Positions 48,673-53,620 of a stretch of 64,000 bases of DNA are shown here, in pieces. The notes below the pieces were generated by a model. That model was not told the DNA's origin and did no database searches. It was given only the letters and a program-made list of their open reading frames with translations. Source of the stretch: Mycolicibacterium goodii (lineage in GTDB: Bacteria; Actinomycetota; Actinomycetes; Mycobacteriales; Mycobacteriaceae). The stretch is from the NCBI RefSeq assembly GCF_022370755.2, contig NZ_CP092364.2, positions 248,001-312,000 on the forward strand, read 5' to 3'. A program made the translations under genes and the position numbers. Position 1 is the stretch's first letter; every line of letters begins with the position of its first letter.

Positions 48673-48728
48673 CGTTCGTAACGCCACGGCGGAAATTCCT
48701 CCAAAATTCCGCCGTGGCGTTACGAACG
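48673..48728. repeat. Hairpin repeat GTAACGCCACGGCGGAA, copy B
   Basis: Perfect 22-base arms (48673-48694 and 48707-48728) with a 12-base loop. The inner 17 bases of each arm equal those of copy A. It lies between the end of accD3 and the start of the Vsr-like gene, both on the minus strand, and is placed as a terminator for accD3. Confidence 0.85.
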
Positions 48729-48744: not shown

Positions 48745-50214
48745 CTACAAGCCGATTCGGCGATACCGCTCCAACCGCGCGCGCAGCCGGTCCTCGTCGG
48801 GGACGTTGCGCAGGCCGTACAACTCGGCGGCGATCGCGGTGGACAATCGGGCCGTGAACGCGCGCGGTTCGTCGGCGGCATCGGGTTTTTCGGGGACGAC
48901 GACGTCGACGATGCCGTGGCGCAGCAGGTCGACGGCCCGAACGCCTTGTGCGGCAGCGAGTTCGGCGGCATGCTCGGTGTCGCGGTAGACGATCGCGCTG
49001 GCACCCTCGGGGGGTAATGGGGCGAGCCAGCCGTTGGACGCGGCCAGTACGCGATCGGCGGGCACCATCGCCAGCGCTGGTCCGCCGCTGCCCTGACCCA
49101 TGAGCACCGACACGGTCGGGGTGTCGAGCGTGACGAGTTCGGCCAGGCAGCGGGCGATCTCACCGGCCAGCCCGCCCTGCTCGGCCTCGGTCGACAGCGC
49201 GGGCCCGGCGGTGTCGATCACCAGCACGAGTGGTAACCGCAGCCCGGCGGCCAGCGCCATCCCGCGGCGGGCCTCGCGCAGCGCGCCGGGGCCCACCAGC
49301 CCGCCGACGATACGGCGCTGGCCGAGTACGACGGCAGGCTGACCGGAGAACCGTGCCAGCGCGAGCAGCGTCGTCGCCGCCTCACCTCGTTCGGTGCCCG
49401 ACAGCAGCACCTGATCGGTCGCACCGTGACGCAGCAGGAACCCGACACCGGGGCGGTCGGGACGACGCGAGGCGACGACCGAGTCCCACGCCGGCACATC
49501 CGGCAAAGCCTCGGCCATCACCGGCGAAGGCGCGGGCCCCGGCGCGTCGGCGACCACACGCAACGTCCGGTCCAGGGTCTCGCGCAGCAGCGCCAGCGGC
49601 ACCACACCGTCGATGACGCCATGGGCGTGCAGGTTCTCGGCGGTCTGCACGCCGGACGGGAACGGCTCGCCGTAGAGGTGTTCGTACACGCGGGGGCCGA
49701 GGAACCCGATCAGCGCACCGGGTTCGGCCGCGGTGACGTGGCCCAGCGAACCCCACGACGCGAACACCCCGCCGGTCGTGGGATGCCGCAGGTACACCAG
49801 GTAGGGCAGGTGGGCCTGCTTGTGCAGTTCGACCGCCGCGGCGATCTTGACCATCTGCAGGAACGCGACCGTGCCCTCCTGCATGCGCGTGCCGCCCGAA
49901 CTCGGCGAAGCCAGCAGCGGTAGGCGCTCGGCGGTCGCGCGCTGCACGGCCGCGGTGATCCGCTCGGCCGCAGCCACGCCGATCGAACCGGCGAGGAAGT
50001 CGAACTCGCACGCCACGACCGCGACGCGTCGGCCGAACACCGTGCCCTCGCCGGTCACCACCGATTCGTCCAACCCGGTCTTCGCCGCGGCCTCGGCCAG
50101 TTCGCGTCGGTAGGCGTCGTCGGGGCCCACGTCGAGTGGGGCGGAGTCCCAGCTGCGGAAGGAACCCTCGTCCAGCACTGCATCCCGAAGCGCCAGCGCG
50201 CCGATCCGACTCAC
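48745..50214 (-). CDS. accD3: Acetyl/propionyl-CoA carboxylase carboxyltransferase AccD3
   Basis: A 489-residue fusion of the beta (AccD-like, N-terminal) and alpha (AccA-like, C-terminal) halves of a carboxyltransferase. The beta half has the crotonase-fold loops PLLASPSSGGTRMQEG and HPTTGGVFASWGS; the alpha half has LVLVIDTAGPALSTEAEQGG and MGQGSGGPALAMVPADRV. No CxxC zinc finger is seen at the N-terminus, unlike E. coli AccD. Rv0904c (accD3) lies next to prrA in M. tuberculosis; here 28 kb lies between. The enzyme moves CO2 from biotin to an acyl-CoA; the specific acyl-CoA is not proven for AccD3. Confidence 0.94.
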   Translation of the reverse strand: MSRIGALALRDAVLDEGSFRSWDSAPLDVGPDDAYRRELAEAAAKTGLDESVVTGEGTVFGRRVAVVACEFDFLAGSIGVAAAERITAAVQRATAERLPLLASPSSGGTRMQEGTVAFLQMVKIAAAVELHKQAHLPYLVYLRHPTTGGVFASWGSLGHVTAAEPGALIGFLGPRVYEHLYGEPFPSGVQTAENLHAHGVIDGVVPLALLRETLDRTLRVVADAPGPAPSPVMAEALPDVPAWDSVVASRRPDRPGVGFLLRHGATDQVLLSGTERGEAATTLLALARFSGQPAVVLGQRRIVGGLVGPGALREARRGMALAAGLRLPLVLVIDTAGPALSTEAEQGGLAGEIARCLAELVTLDTPTVSVLMGQGSGGPALAMVPADRVLAASNGWLAPLPPEGASAIVYRDTEHAAELAAAQGVRAVDLLRHGIVDVVVPEKPDAADEPRAFTARLSTAIAAELYGLRNVPDEDRLRARLERYRRIGL

Positions 50215-50251
50215 ACCCGAAGGTTAGCCGACGCACCGTGACCAGCTTCGG

Positions 50252-50281
50252 TTGCCGAAAACGCGGCGCCATGGCAATAAT
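50252..50281 (+). promoter_or_regulatory. SigA-type promoter for the glycosyltransferase/glucosidase operon
   Basis: TTGCCG (50252-50257) and AATAAT (50276-50281) are spaced by 18 bases, four and five matches of six to the TTGACA/TATAAT consensus. The last base of the -10 box is the first base of the CIRCE-like element, so a bound repressor would block transcription. Confidence 0.55.
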
Positions 50282-50307
50282 TGGCACTCGTCGGATGAGA
50301 GTGCTAA
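50281..50307. promoter_or_regulatory. CIRCE element (HrcA heat-shock operator)
   Basis: TTGGCACTC (50281-50289), nine bases, GAGTGCTAA (50299-50307). This matches the CIRCE consensus TTAGCACTC-N9-GAGTGCTAA at 17 of 18 arm positions, with exact spacing; the only change is A to G at the third base. HrcA binds CIRCE upstream of groE and dnaK operons in many bacteria and in mycobacteria upstream of groES and groEL. The element sits 36 bases before the glycosyltransferase start and overlaps its promoter. Confidence 0.88.
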
Positions 50308-50342
50308 CGCGGCCGCGCATTTGAGTGAGTAGGAGGTTGAGC

Positions 50343-51494
50343 GTGAGCGGCAACGATATCCTCGCCATGGCCGACGTCGACGATCCGCTGCGGATCGTGC
50401 TCGTCGCGCCACCCTATTTCGACATCCCGCCCAAGGGCTACGGCGGCACCGAAGCCGTCGTCGCGGATCTCGCCGATACGCTGACCGCCCGCGGCCACCG
50501 CGTCACGGTCCTCGGCGCAGGCGCGCCAGGTACCGCCGCGCGATTCCAACCACTCTGGGAGCGGACACTTTCCGAGCGTCTCGGCCAGCCGTATCCCGAG
50601 ATCATGCACGCGCTCAAGGTGCGCCACGCCATCGAACGTCTCGCCGACACCGAAGGTGTCGACATCGTCCACGATCACACGTTCGCCGGCCCCCTCAACG
50701 CTCCGCTCTACCGCAACCTCGGGTTGCCGACCGTGGCCACGGTGCACGGCCCGATCGACGAGGACCTGTACCCCTACTACCGTGAACTCGGGGACGACAT
50801 CGGCCTCATCGCGATCAGCGACCGTCAGCGCGAGCTCGCTCCTGACCTGAATTGGGTTGGCCGCGTACACAATGCGCTGCGCATCGACGACTGGCCGTTC
50901 AACACCGCGAAGAAGGACTACGCGCTGTTCCTCGGCCGGTACGCGCCGTACAAGGGGGCCCACCTCGCGCTGGAGGCCGCGCACGCCGCTGGCATGCCGC
51001 TGGTGCTGGCCGGCAAGTGCAGTGAGCCGCCCGAGATCGCGTACTTCGACGAACAGGTGAAGCCGCTGCTCACCGACAGCGATCACGTGTTCGGGATGGC
51101 AGACGCGCAGGCCAAGCGCAAGCTGCTCGCCGAGGCCCGCTGCCTGATCTTCCCGATCCAGTGGGAGGAGCCGTTCGGCATGGTGATGATCGAGGCCATG
51201 GCGTGCGGCACCCCGGTGGTGGCGCTGCGGGGCGGCGCGGTGCCGGAGGTGGTCGTCGACGGGGTCACCGGTGTGATCTGCGATGCGCCCGAGGAACTTC
51301 CGGCGGCGATGGAAAAGGCCAGGGATCTCGATCCGGCGGCGTGCCGCAAGCATGTCGCAGCGCACTTCGGTGTCGGCCGGTTCGGCGCCGGGTACGAGCA
51401 GATCTACCGCAACGTGATGCGTCAGCGCCGGCGGATGACGCTGCGCGAGGTGCTGACCGAGCCGCCGGGTGTGGCCGAGCGGGCGAGCGCATGA
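50343..51494 (+). CDS. Glycosyltransferase, GT4-like (GT-B fold)
   Basis: A 383-residue cytosolic enzyme. The N-terminal domain has the acceptor-side glycine-rich loop (VAPPYFDIPPKGYGGTEAVVADLADTL), and the C-terminal domain the donor-nucleotide motif (EEPFGMVMIEAMACGTPVVAL) with the Glu-X7-Glu pattern, LFLGRYAPYKGAHLALEAA and HDHTFAG. It transfers a sugar from an NDP-sugar; donor and acceptor are unknown. GTG 50343 is chosen because AGGAGG (50331-50336) lies six bases upstream; an in-frame GTG at 50325 precedes that site. The next gene overlaps by four bases. Confidence 0.9.
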   Translation: MSGNDILAMADVDDPLRIVLVAPPYFDIPPKGYGGTEAVVADLADTLTARGHRVTVLGAGAPGTAARFQPLWERTLSERLGQPYPEIMHALKVRHAIERLADTEGVDIVHDHTFAGPLNAPLYRNLGLPTVATVHGPIDEDLYPYYRELGDDIGLIAISDRQRELAPDLNWVGRVHNALRIDDWPFNTAKKDYALFLGRYAPYKGAHLALEAAHAAGMPLVLAGKCSEPPEIAYFDEQVKPLLTDSDHVFGMADAQAKRKLLAEARCLIFPIQWEEPFGMVMIEAMACGTPVVALRGGAVPEVVVDGVTGVICDAPEELPAAMEKARDLDPAACRKHVAAHFGVGRFGAGYEQIYRNVMRQRRRMTLREVLTEPPGVAERASA

Positions 51495-53620
51495 CCGCGA
51501 TCCCGACCATTCTCAACGGTGGCGAGCCCGCCAGCATCGGATTCGGTGGCGCGACAGTGACACTCGTGGAAGGCGCCACGTTCTGCCTGTCCGACCGTCA
51601 CGGTGACGTGCTGGCGGGCCGGTCGCACGGCCTGTTCTTCCGCGACGCCCGTGTGCTGTCGCGGTGGCAGTTGCACGTCGACGGGGGTGAACCCGAGTCG
51701 CTGACCGTGCAGACCCCGGAAGCCTTTGCCGCGCAGTTCATCATGCGTCGCACACCGCGCGCCGGGGTCGCCGACAGCACGCTGCTGCTGGTGCGCGACC
51801 GCCTCGTCGCCGACGGCCTACGCGAGACGATCTCGCTGTACAACCTCGCCGACGAGCCCACCGTGGTGTCCCTCGAGCTGCTCGTCGACGCCGATTTCGC
51901 CGACCTGTTCGCCGTCAAGGAGGGTCGCGCGCCGATCGGGGGAGCCGAGATCGCGCTCGTCGACAACGAGCTGGTGCTCAACGACCGTGCCAATCGTGTT
52001 CGCGGCGTGAAGATCACGGCGTCGGGTTCACCGGTGGTGACACCGGGCGTGTTCCGTTGGCGCATCGTCGTGCGGCCGCGCGGCACATGGCAGGCCGAGG
52101 TCGTCGCGGAGCCGACGTGGGCGAACCAGAGCGTCAAGACCCGGTTCCGCACCGGTGAGGAGCTGGAGTCCAGCGGTCCGGCTCGCAAGATCGAGGCGTG
52201 GCGGGGGACCACCACGACGGTCGAGACCGATCTGCGGGCGCTGGCCGCGACGCTGCAGCGCAGCGAGAGTGATCTGGGCGCGCTGCTCATCCGCGACGAG
52301 ACCGGTGACGAACGCCCGTACGTCGCGGCCGGTGCGCCGTGGTTCATGACGCTGTTCGGACGTGACAGCCTGCTCACGGCGTGGATGTCGTTGCCGCTGG
52401 ACGTCGGGTTGTCGGTCGGCACCCTGCAGCGGCTCGCCGACACGCAGGGGCGCCGGGTCGATCCGCTGACCGAGGAGCAGCCGGGCCGGATCATGCACGA
52501 GATCCGCCGGGGCCCAGCGAGCAGCGACGTGCTGGGCGGATCGGTCTACTACGGGTCGGCCGATTCGACGCCGCTGTTCGTGATGCTGCTGGCCGAGTGC
52601 TGGCGGTGGGGCGCCGACGAGAGCGCCGTTCGGGCGTTGCTGCCCGCGGCCGACGCCGCGCTGGGTTGGGCGACGCGTTACGGCGACCGCGATGACGACG
52701 GGTTCATCGAGTACAAGCGGGCGACCGATCGCGGCCTGCTCAATCAGGGCTGGAAGGACAGTTTCGACGCGATCACCGACGCGGCGGGCCATCGCGCGGA
52801 CGCGCCGATCGCGCTGTGCGAGGTGCAGGCCTATCAGTACGCGGCGCTGATCGCGCGGGCCGACCTCGCCGAGGCGTTCGGCGAACCCGCGACCGCGAAG
52901 CGTCTGCGGGACCGGGCCGCGGCGTTGAAGAAACGCTTCGCCGAGAAGTTCTGGCTGCCCGACCGCGGCTACTACGCGTTGGCCCTGGACGGCCGCAAAC
53001 GTCCGGTCGACTCGTTGACCAGCAACGTCGGCCACTGTCTGTGGGCGGGCATCGCGACCGACGAGCACGCCGCGCGCATCGTCGAGCAGCTCGGCAGCAC
53101 CGAGATGGACTCGGGTTTCGGGTTGCGCACCCTCGCCGCCGACATGGGCGCCTACAACCCGATGAGCTACCACAACGGGTCGGTGTGGCCGCACGACACG
53201 GCCATCGCGGTCGCGGGCCTGCTGCGCTACCGCCACGTCCCTGGCGCGGTGGAGCTCGCCGAACGGCTGGCCCTCGGCCTGCTGGACGCGGCCGACGCGT
53301 TCGGTGGCCGGCTGCCCGAACTGTTCTGCGGTTTCGACCGGTCGCAGTTCCGGTCACCGGTGCCGTACCCGACGTCGTGCTCGCCGCAGGCGTGGGCCAG
53401 CGCGGCACCGCTGCTGCTGGTGCGTGCCTTCCTCGGACTGGAGCCCGACGTCCCGCACCGCACACTGACGGTGCGACCGCACCTGCCGCGGGCGTGGGGC
53501 CGGGTCGCGTTGACCGATCTGCGGCTCGGTCAGGCCACCGTCGCGGTGGAGGCCGAAGGGACGGTGGCAAAGGTCACCGGCCTGCCCGACGACTGGCAAT
53601 TGAGCACGGCCGAGAGCTGA
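51491..53620 (+). CDS. Amylo-alpha-1,6-glucosidase-type glycoside hydrolase
   Basis: A 709-residue protein of the glycogen-debranching type. The N-terminal beta-sandwich domain (about residues 10-220: GATFCLSDRHGDVLAGRSHGLFFRDARVLSRW) is followed by an (alpha/alpha)6 barrel with GAPWFMTLFGRDSLLTAW, YYGSADSTPLFVML, DDDGFIEYKRA, LLNQGWKDSFDAI and NPMSYHNGSVWPHDTAIA. The acidic residues in RDDDGFIEY, WKDS and VWPHD are candidates for the catalytic pair. The start overlaps the glycosyltransferase stop (ATGA). Related proteins act on glucans, trehalose-like or glucosylglycerate sugars; together with the glycosyltransferase it may make and remodel a compatible solute or glycan. Confidence 0.88.
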   Translation: MTAIPTILNGGEPASIGFGGATVTLVEGATFCLSDRHGDVLAGRSHGLFFRDARVLSRWQLHVDGGEPESLTVQTPEAFAAQFIMRRTPRAGVADSTLLLVRDRLVADGLRETISLYNLADEPTVVSLELLVDADFADLFAVKEGRAPIGGAEIALVDNELVLNDRANRVRGVKITASGSPVVTPGVFRWRIVVRPRGTWQAEVVAEPTWANQSVKTRFRTGEELESSGPARKIEAWRGTTTTVETDLRALAATLQRSESDLGALLIRDETGDERPYVAAGAPWFMTLFGRDSLLTAWMSLPLDVGLSVGTLQRLADTQGRRVDPLTEEQPGRIMHEIRRGPASSDVLGGSVYYGSADSTPLFVMLLAECWRWGADESAVRALLPAADAALGWATRYGDRDDDGFIEYKRATDRGLLNQGWKDSFDAITDAAGHRADAPIALCEVQAYQYAALIARADLAEAFGEPATAKRLRDRAAALKKRFAEKFWLPDRGYYALALDGRKRPVDSLTSNVGHCLWAGIATDEHAARIVEQLGSTEMDSGFGLRTLAADMGAYNPMSYHNGSVWPHDTAIAVAGLLRYRHVPGAVELAERLALGLLDAADAFGGRLPELFCGFDRSQFRSPVPYPTSCSPQAWASAAPLLLVRAFLGLEPDVPHRTLTVRPHLPRAWGRVALTDLRLGQATVAVEAEGTVAKVTGLPDDWQLSTAES

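Follow-up and report, generated by a model that had tools for sequence, protein, structure and literature searches.

Why should an operator of the heat-shock repressor HrcA stand in front of two sugar enzyme genes? The question is raised by a 64,000-nucleotide stretch of Mycolicibacterium goodii DNA (contig NZ_CP092364.2, positions 248,001 to 312,000; hereafter the window), in which an inverted repeat of the CIRCE type (controlling inverted repeat of chaperone expression) lies just upstream of a gene for a glycosyltransferase of family 4 (GT4) and an overlapping gene for a glycoside hydrolase of the glycogen debranching enzyme (GDE) type. Taken as a whole, the evidence makes it probable that this is a heat-shock operon of the HrcA regulon, whose products would make and recycle an alpha-glucoside. 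The parts of this reading differ in strength: judging from sequence comparisons, control of the operon by HrcA and heat is very probable, and the make-and-recycle role of the two enzymes stands at about even chances.

The operator in the window is TTGGCACTC-GTCGGATGA-GAGTGCTAA (Table 1). When compared with the consensus inverted repeat, TTAGCACTC-N9-GAGTGCTAA, it has a single mismatch among the 18 arm positions and a spacer of exactly nine bases. It is the sole match in the window at up to three mismatches, and 100 shuffles of the window gave none. Operator and promoter lie in the intergenic stretch 50215-50342, past a minus-strand AccD3-like gene, with 18 bases separating the -35-like and -10 boxes. 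Since CIRCE overlaps the -10 box, bound HrcA would block transcription. From the end of CIRCE to the GTG start of the GT4 gene there are 35 bases, an alternative in-frame GTG being present at 50325, and the ATG of the hydrolase gene sits inside the GT4 stop (ATGA), giving an overlap of four bases. These observations bear out a preliminary description of the locus in its account of CIRCE (17 of 18 positions, nine-base spacing), of the promoter TTGCCG-N18-AATAAT overlapping it, and of AGGAGG and the overlapping second gene; it was also right on the proximity of CIRCE to the gene, though its figure of 36 bases is one too many.

Table 1. Features of the locus and CIRCE sites of the genome. Plain numbers are window positions; those prefixed C1 are genome positions.
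Feature	Position	Strand	Basis or remark
-35-like box TTGCCG	50252-50257	+	Read from sequence; in relatives less constant than the -10 box
-10 box AATAAT	50276-50281	+	Last T is the first base of CIRCE
CIRCE operator TTGGCACTC-N9-GAGTGCTAA, putative HrcA site (CIRCE locus of the GT4-hydrolase operon)	50281-50307	+	Motif scan and conservation
Ribosome-binding site AGGAGG	50331-50336	+	Read from sequence
GT4 glycosyltransferase gene, 383 amino acids, GTG start	50343-51494	+	GT4-type Pfam domains
Glycoside hydrolase gene, 709 amino acids	51491-53620	+	Pfam GDE_N_bis, MGH1-like_GH, GDE_C
AccD3-like carboxyltransferase gene	48745-50214	-	Profile search
EchA6-type enoyl-CoA hydratase gene	start 53647		NF005891, 393 bits against a cut-off of 237
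CIRCE locus	C1:330957		Hsp20 gene (the genome has three)
CIRCE locus	C1:494755		Zinc-ribbon gene (Zn_ribbon_8), Rv0991c/Ruc-like as judged by eye
CIRCE locus	C1:4309879		Cpn10-Cpn60 pair (groES-groEL1)
CIRCE locus, tandem pair of sites	C1:4922505 and 4922540		Second Cpn60 (groEL) gene

Conservation of the operator was assessed in two samples of the genus, with a GT4 query protein started one codon ahead of the GTG. Matches were found in 23 of 148 genomes at E = 1e-60 and in 43 of a larger sample of 396 at E = 1e-150, and the upstream regions of all 43 main copies (16, 21 and 6 loci) were read. In every one of the 43 a CIRCE lies just upstream of the GT4 gene, with no mismatch in 19 genomes, one in 20, two in three and three in one. 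In 40 of them a -10 box of the form NATAAT merges with the left arm of CIRCE, the five bases before CIRCE being CATAA in 36, AATAA in three, GATAA in one and something else in three. At 16 loci, agreement with the most frequent base is 95.8% for the CIRCE arms, falling to 70% for the spacer and to about 50% for the sequence on either side. The GT4 protein itself is 95% identical in M. smegmatis (120 of 7510 proteins listed).

Elsewhere in the 6.74 Mb genome the same motif keeps chaperone company. At up to three mismatches there are six full CIRCE sites at five loci, against one site for the backwards control; the five sites outside the window all lie at chaperone-type genes, and there is a single hrcA (PF01628, 200.7 bits). 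Each of 28 further genomes has between one and seven CIRCEs at up to two mismatches and no backwards-control site. As a separate observation, the CIRCE of the Hsp20 gene (L006:4958-4984, equivalent to G000:C1:330957) is 33 kb from that of the operon, and a CIRCE likewise precedes the corresponding Hsp20 gene in several relatives (L215, L218, L226, L228, L233).

How far is this the regulon already known? According to the parts of two reports available to us, HrcA of M. tuberculosis represses four genes, namely three Hsp60/Hsp10 genes and ruc (PMC7448276), its operons being groEL2, groES-groEL1, rv0991c-rv0990c and hrcA-dnaJ2 (PMC8557902), and both describe mycobacterial HrcA as a regulator of chaperone genes. 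M. goodii has the same operator type, and its chaperonin and Ruc-like genes carry CIRCE; the difference is the added sugar-enzyme operon, no such target being named in those parts of the two reports. Hsp20 is likewise not among the targets they name. A literature search by titles and abstract openings, with most subscription journals outside its reach, found no report of a sugar operon under HrcA. We would class the operon as a target of a new kind for a regulator that is already familiar.

It is from the identical sites at known targets that we infer HrcA binding and heat induction at the operon. At normal temperature HrcA bound to the operator would mask the -10 box together with the start region and so block the sigma-A-type promoter. 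Under heat or protein-folding stress it would be released, as at groESL and ruc, so that GT4 and the coupled hydrolase would be made alongside the chaperones. Ruc in M. tuberculosis behaves in this way, being low at 37 C through HrcA, abundant in an hrcA mutant and raised at 45 C (PMC7448276, in the part available).

The nearest solved relative of the GT4 protein is TeGSS (tll1591) of Thermosynechococcus elongatus (PDB 7fg9, 7fga, 8x3q; E = 5.6e-58). According to PMC9909042 this enzyme combines uridine diphosphate (UDP)-glucose and sucrose into alpha-1,2-linked glucosylsucroses, whose levels reportedly increase when cells are stressed by salt and heat. A model of GT4 predicted from 14 sequences (mean predicted local distance difference test score, pLDDT, 81) is matched best by 8x3q and 7fg9, with a template modelling (TM) score by target of 0.89, and structure comparison also places tetrahydrobiopterin glucosyltransferases among its nearest solved relatives. 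GT4 shares with TeGSS the GT-B fold and the UDP-binding residues Tyr18, Arg179, Lys184 and Glu256; the equivalents of these four and of Trp254 are invariant in 144 of 144 GT4 relatives. For the glutamate, PMC9909042 gives both 256 and 265, and we use 256, where the chain has Glu. It is plausible that GT4 is a UDP-glucose-dependent retaining alpha-glucosyltransferase. The gene contexts differ: TeGSS adjoins its sucrose-phosphate synthase gene, whereas the GT4 of the window is partnered with a hydrolase.

Among solved structures that hydrolase comes closest to the amylo-alpha-1,6-glucosidase of Thermococcus gammatolerans STB12 (7vma; E = 8.9e-80). The predicted model (mean pLDDT 76) matches its fold over most of the length, at 31% identity and TM scores of 0.72/0.81, and the broad Pfam entry GDE_C scores above its cut-off. 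What sets the window-type hydrolase apart from 7vma is its company: in the 148-genome sample it is confined to genomes with GT4 (20 of 20), GT4 alone being found, by these thresholds, in three genomes, in one case at the edge of a contig. The preliminary description had named a GT4-like enzyme and an amylo-alpha-1,6-glucosidase-type hydrolase and had proposed that this would place a sugar or compatible-solute pathway in the HrcA regulon. The enzyme families hold, with TeGSS and 7vma nearest, and the regulatory half of the proposal has gained strong support from a motif shared with chaperone genes and kept in all 43 main copies of the genus; the carbohydrate half is plausible rather than proven.

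The enzyme families lead us to expect an acceptor, a linkage and a protective purpose of the following kind. GT4 would attach glucose in alpha linkage, perhaps alpha-1,2, to an acceptor that is itself a small sugar or a glycoside; once stress ends, the hydrolase would trim or recycle the resulting alpha-glucoside. A bolder version, which we offer as a speculation unlikely to be right in full, is that HrcA links the protein chaperones to a chemical one: heat-shocked cells would make a small sugar with an alpha-1,2-linked glucose, such as a glucosyl-trehalose derived from their own trehalose, as a thermoprotectant, and the hydrolase would remove it on recovery, the GT4-GDE module having come under CIRCE in mycobacterial and Pseudonocardiaceae lineages, perhaps more than once.

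Several observations weigh against a heat-shock operon that makes and recycles an alpha-glucoside, some concerning the enzymes and others the distribution of genes and operator. At the TeGSS acceptor rim, where ten of eleven residues can be surely numbered, four are identical in GT4, one is aromatic for aromatic and five are different. The genome also has no sucrose-phosphate synthase above cut-off (TIGR02472: 14 matches, the best with 92 bits against 576). Together these suggest that the acceptor probably differs from that of TeGSS, and on the same grounds glucosylsucrose is not supported as the product. Below 7vma in the fold ranking of the hydrolase come beta-acting phosphorylases of glycoside hydrolase family 94 (GH94) and, after them, E. 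coli YgjK (GH63), whose structure contains an alpha-1,2-linked glucoside and whose TM score is near 0.5. The fold is therefore no guide to the linkage on which the hydrolase acts.

As for distribution, GT4 finds no counterpart at E = 1e-150 in 353 of the 396 genomes of the genus, so that the system is dispensable. Six genomes (G002, G082, G817, G873, G810, G936) carry second, more diverged GT4 copies without an upstream CIRCE. Nor was CIRCE found in any of eight genus relatives at 58-60% or 40-45% identity (L029-L036, L036 with only 188 bases upstream) or at any of 22 Nocardia loci among the best 80 of 574 named relatives, a set that overlaps the genus samples. Where the gene order is GDE-GT4, there is no CIRCE upstream of GDE (20 stretches; L108 stops before GDE begins, and in L096 the part upstream of GDE is 438 bases long). 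Loss of the palindrome where the genes persist, the observation that the preliminary description held to tell against its proposal, is thus not seen in the 43 main copies and is seen in the second copies, the eight distant relatives and Nocardia, which makes the control clade-specific. Sites of the HspR type (HspR-associated inverted repeat, HAIR) were considered as a substitute and rejected, none being present at up to three mismatches in the set of genus loci that includes those eight relatives; at up to two mismatches there was one match in the GDE-first stretches (L132) and none in the best 80 of 574 named relatives.

Outside the main copies of the genus, CIRCE nevertheless recurs. Seven of those best 80 of 574 relatives have it ahead of GT4: M. 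palustre, M. barrassiae, M. shimoidei (copy 1), M. arosiense, Saccharothrix, Amycolatopsis thermalba and Prauserella. Searches of the order and class at E = 1e-90 gave matches in 77 of 298 and 40 of 394 genomes; loci were taken for up to 30 matches each, with ten further matches of the order search (L115-L124). Further relatives outside the genus with CIRCE are L042, L046, L047, L048, L050, L051, L053, L074 and L077, L042 and L150 being apparently one record. In G416 (L040) a sequence with five mismatches at -96 resembles a CIRCE one base shorter than that of its near relative Saccharothrix (L146), possibly a recent loss of CIRCE control.

Presence of CIRCE was set on a FastTree phylogeny of 144 distinct GT4 proteins (153 rows less identical ones, rows with fewer than 280 aligned residues being left out), made before the 396-genome sample and without it. 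With CIRCE scored at up to two mismatches within 700 bases upstream, it is present in 19 of 20 members of the mycobacterial clade, 8 of 10 of a Pseudonocardiaceae-type clade and three others scattered over the tree. At least eight changes are needed, six of them forced by well-supported branches (45 of 141 branches are weakly supported), which indicates that CIRCE control has been gained or lost several times.

Might the enzymes serve another end under the same control? One alternative keeps HrcA and makes the operon one of glycogen or alpha-glucan storage, GT4 priming or extending a glucan and the GDE-like enzyme debranching it to feed glucose metabolism under heat stress. The kinship of the hydrolase with the Thermococcus amylo-alpha-1,6-glucosidase (substrate work in PMC9142091, available in part) is in keeping with this, as are a TeGSS structure with an alpha-glucan tetrasaccharide (8x3q) and a weak similarity of GT4 to glycogen synthase. 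The last, however, amounts to 84 bits against a TIGR02149 cut-off of 302; the hydrolase scores 22.6 of the 364 bits required for the archaeal-type glycogen debranching enzyme (TIGR01561); and in structure GT4 resembles TeGSS (TM score by target 0.89) much more closely than it does GlgM (6tvp; 0.69). We regard storage as unlikely.

Distinctly less probable is a heat-induced modification of envelope or protein, again under HrcA, in which the target of GT4 would be a protein, a lipid or a part of the cell wall, and the hydrolase would reverse the glucosylation. GT4 enzymes are highly diverse in acceptor, and the retention of the donor site alongside the loss of most of the TeGSS acceptor rim would fit, but the nearest solved relatives, TeGSS and the tetrahydrobiopterin glucosyltransferases, act on small soluble acceptors.

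That the conserved palindrome is bound by another regulator, or answers a signal other than heat, seems very improbable. It could be argued from hrcA itself, which has no CIRCE at up to three mismatches in the whole-genome scan, yet PMC8557902 counts hrcA-dnaJ2 among the targets of HrcA in M. tuberculosis. Against this, the identical motif stands at the Cpn10/Cpn60, Hsp20 and Ruc-like genes of a genome with one hrcA, and HrcA represses the Cpn10/Cpn60 and Ruc groups in M. tuberculosis (PMC7448276). A chance palindrome can be dismissed on conservation: the short core GCACTC-N9-GAGTGC at up to one mismatch does indeed no better than the backwards control, with 31 sites to 30, and the full motif was therefore used instead, but the latter gives six against one, and 200 scrambled motifs matched on average 0.045 of the 43 upstream regions (at most 8), where CIRCE matched all.

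Our preferred reading remains an operon that belongs to the HrcA regulon and responds to heat shock. The neighbours of related operons offer leads, not counts, since 13 of the 80 named loci were read gene by gene. In G082 the second copy forms a GT4-GDE-Hsp20 cluster downstream of a resolvase gene and an OrfB_IS605-type gene (L131:3997-10719, G082:C6), which suggests that the module can move. At one of three Paraburkholderia loci, that of P. kirstenboschensis (L198), GT4 adjoins two Hsp20 genes on the opposite strand, and in Saccharothrix (L146) there are Hsp70-like and MerR-type genes near the operon. The second copy of G002 (L130, minus strand, G002:C1:531000-541000) follows a cold-shock-domain gene; behind this GT4 come a CIRCE, an AhpC/TSA peroxiredoxin gene, a glutaredoxin gene and, at a greater distance, the beginning of an FtsH-type gene, a neighbourhood that resembles a heat-resistance island. 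The matches listed did not bear out a supposed connection between GT4-GDE pairs and the general stress response of Alphaproteobacteria.

In the window the operon lies, as had been proposed, between genes that we take to be accD3 and echA6, presumably adjacent to each other in M. tuberculosis. This position does not hold throughout, for in M. palustre (L135) and M. arosiense (L171) the operon is on the opposite side of the AccD3-like gene. The AccD3 neighbourhood may be a recurrent site for the operon. The M. palustre locus also has a major facilitator superfamily gene and a response-regulator/kinase pair upstream. Just past the end of the minus-strand AccD3-like gene in the window, an inverted repeat of 25 bases with a 6-base loop (48673-48728) is probably a terminator.

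The fact that relatives keeping the operon also keep CIRCE suggests that a sugar compound belongs to the heat response of these bacteria, being made and recycled within it. If this is true, heat-induced carbohydrate metabolism would be a directly testable part of that response, in M. smegmatis, and the widespread GT4-GDE gene pair would acquire its first physiological role.

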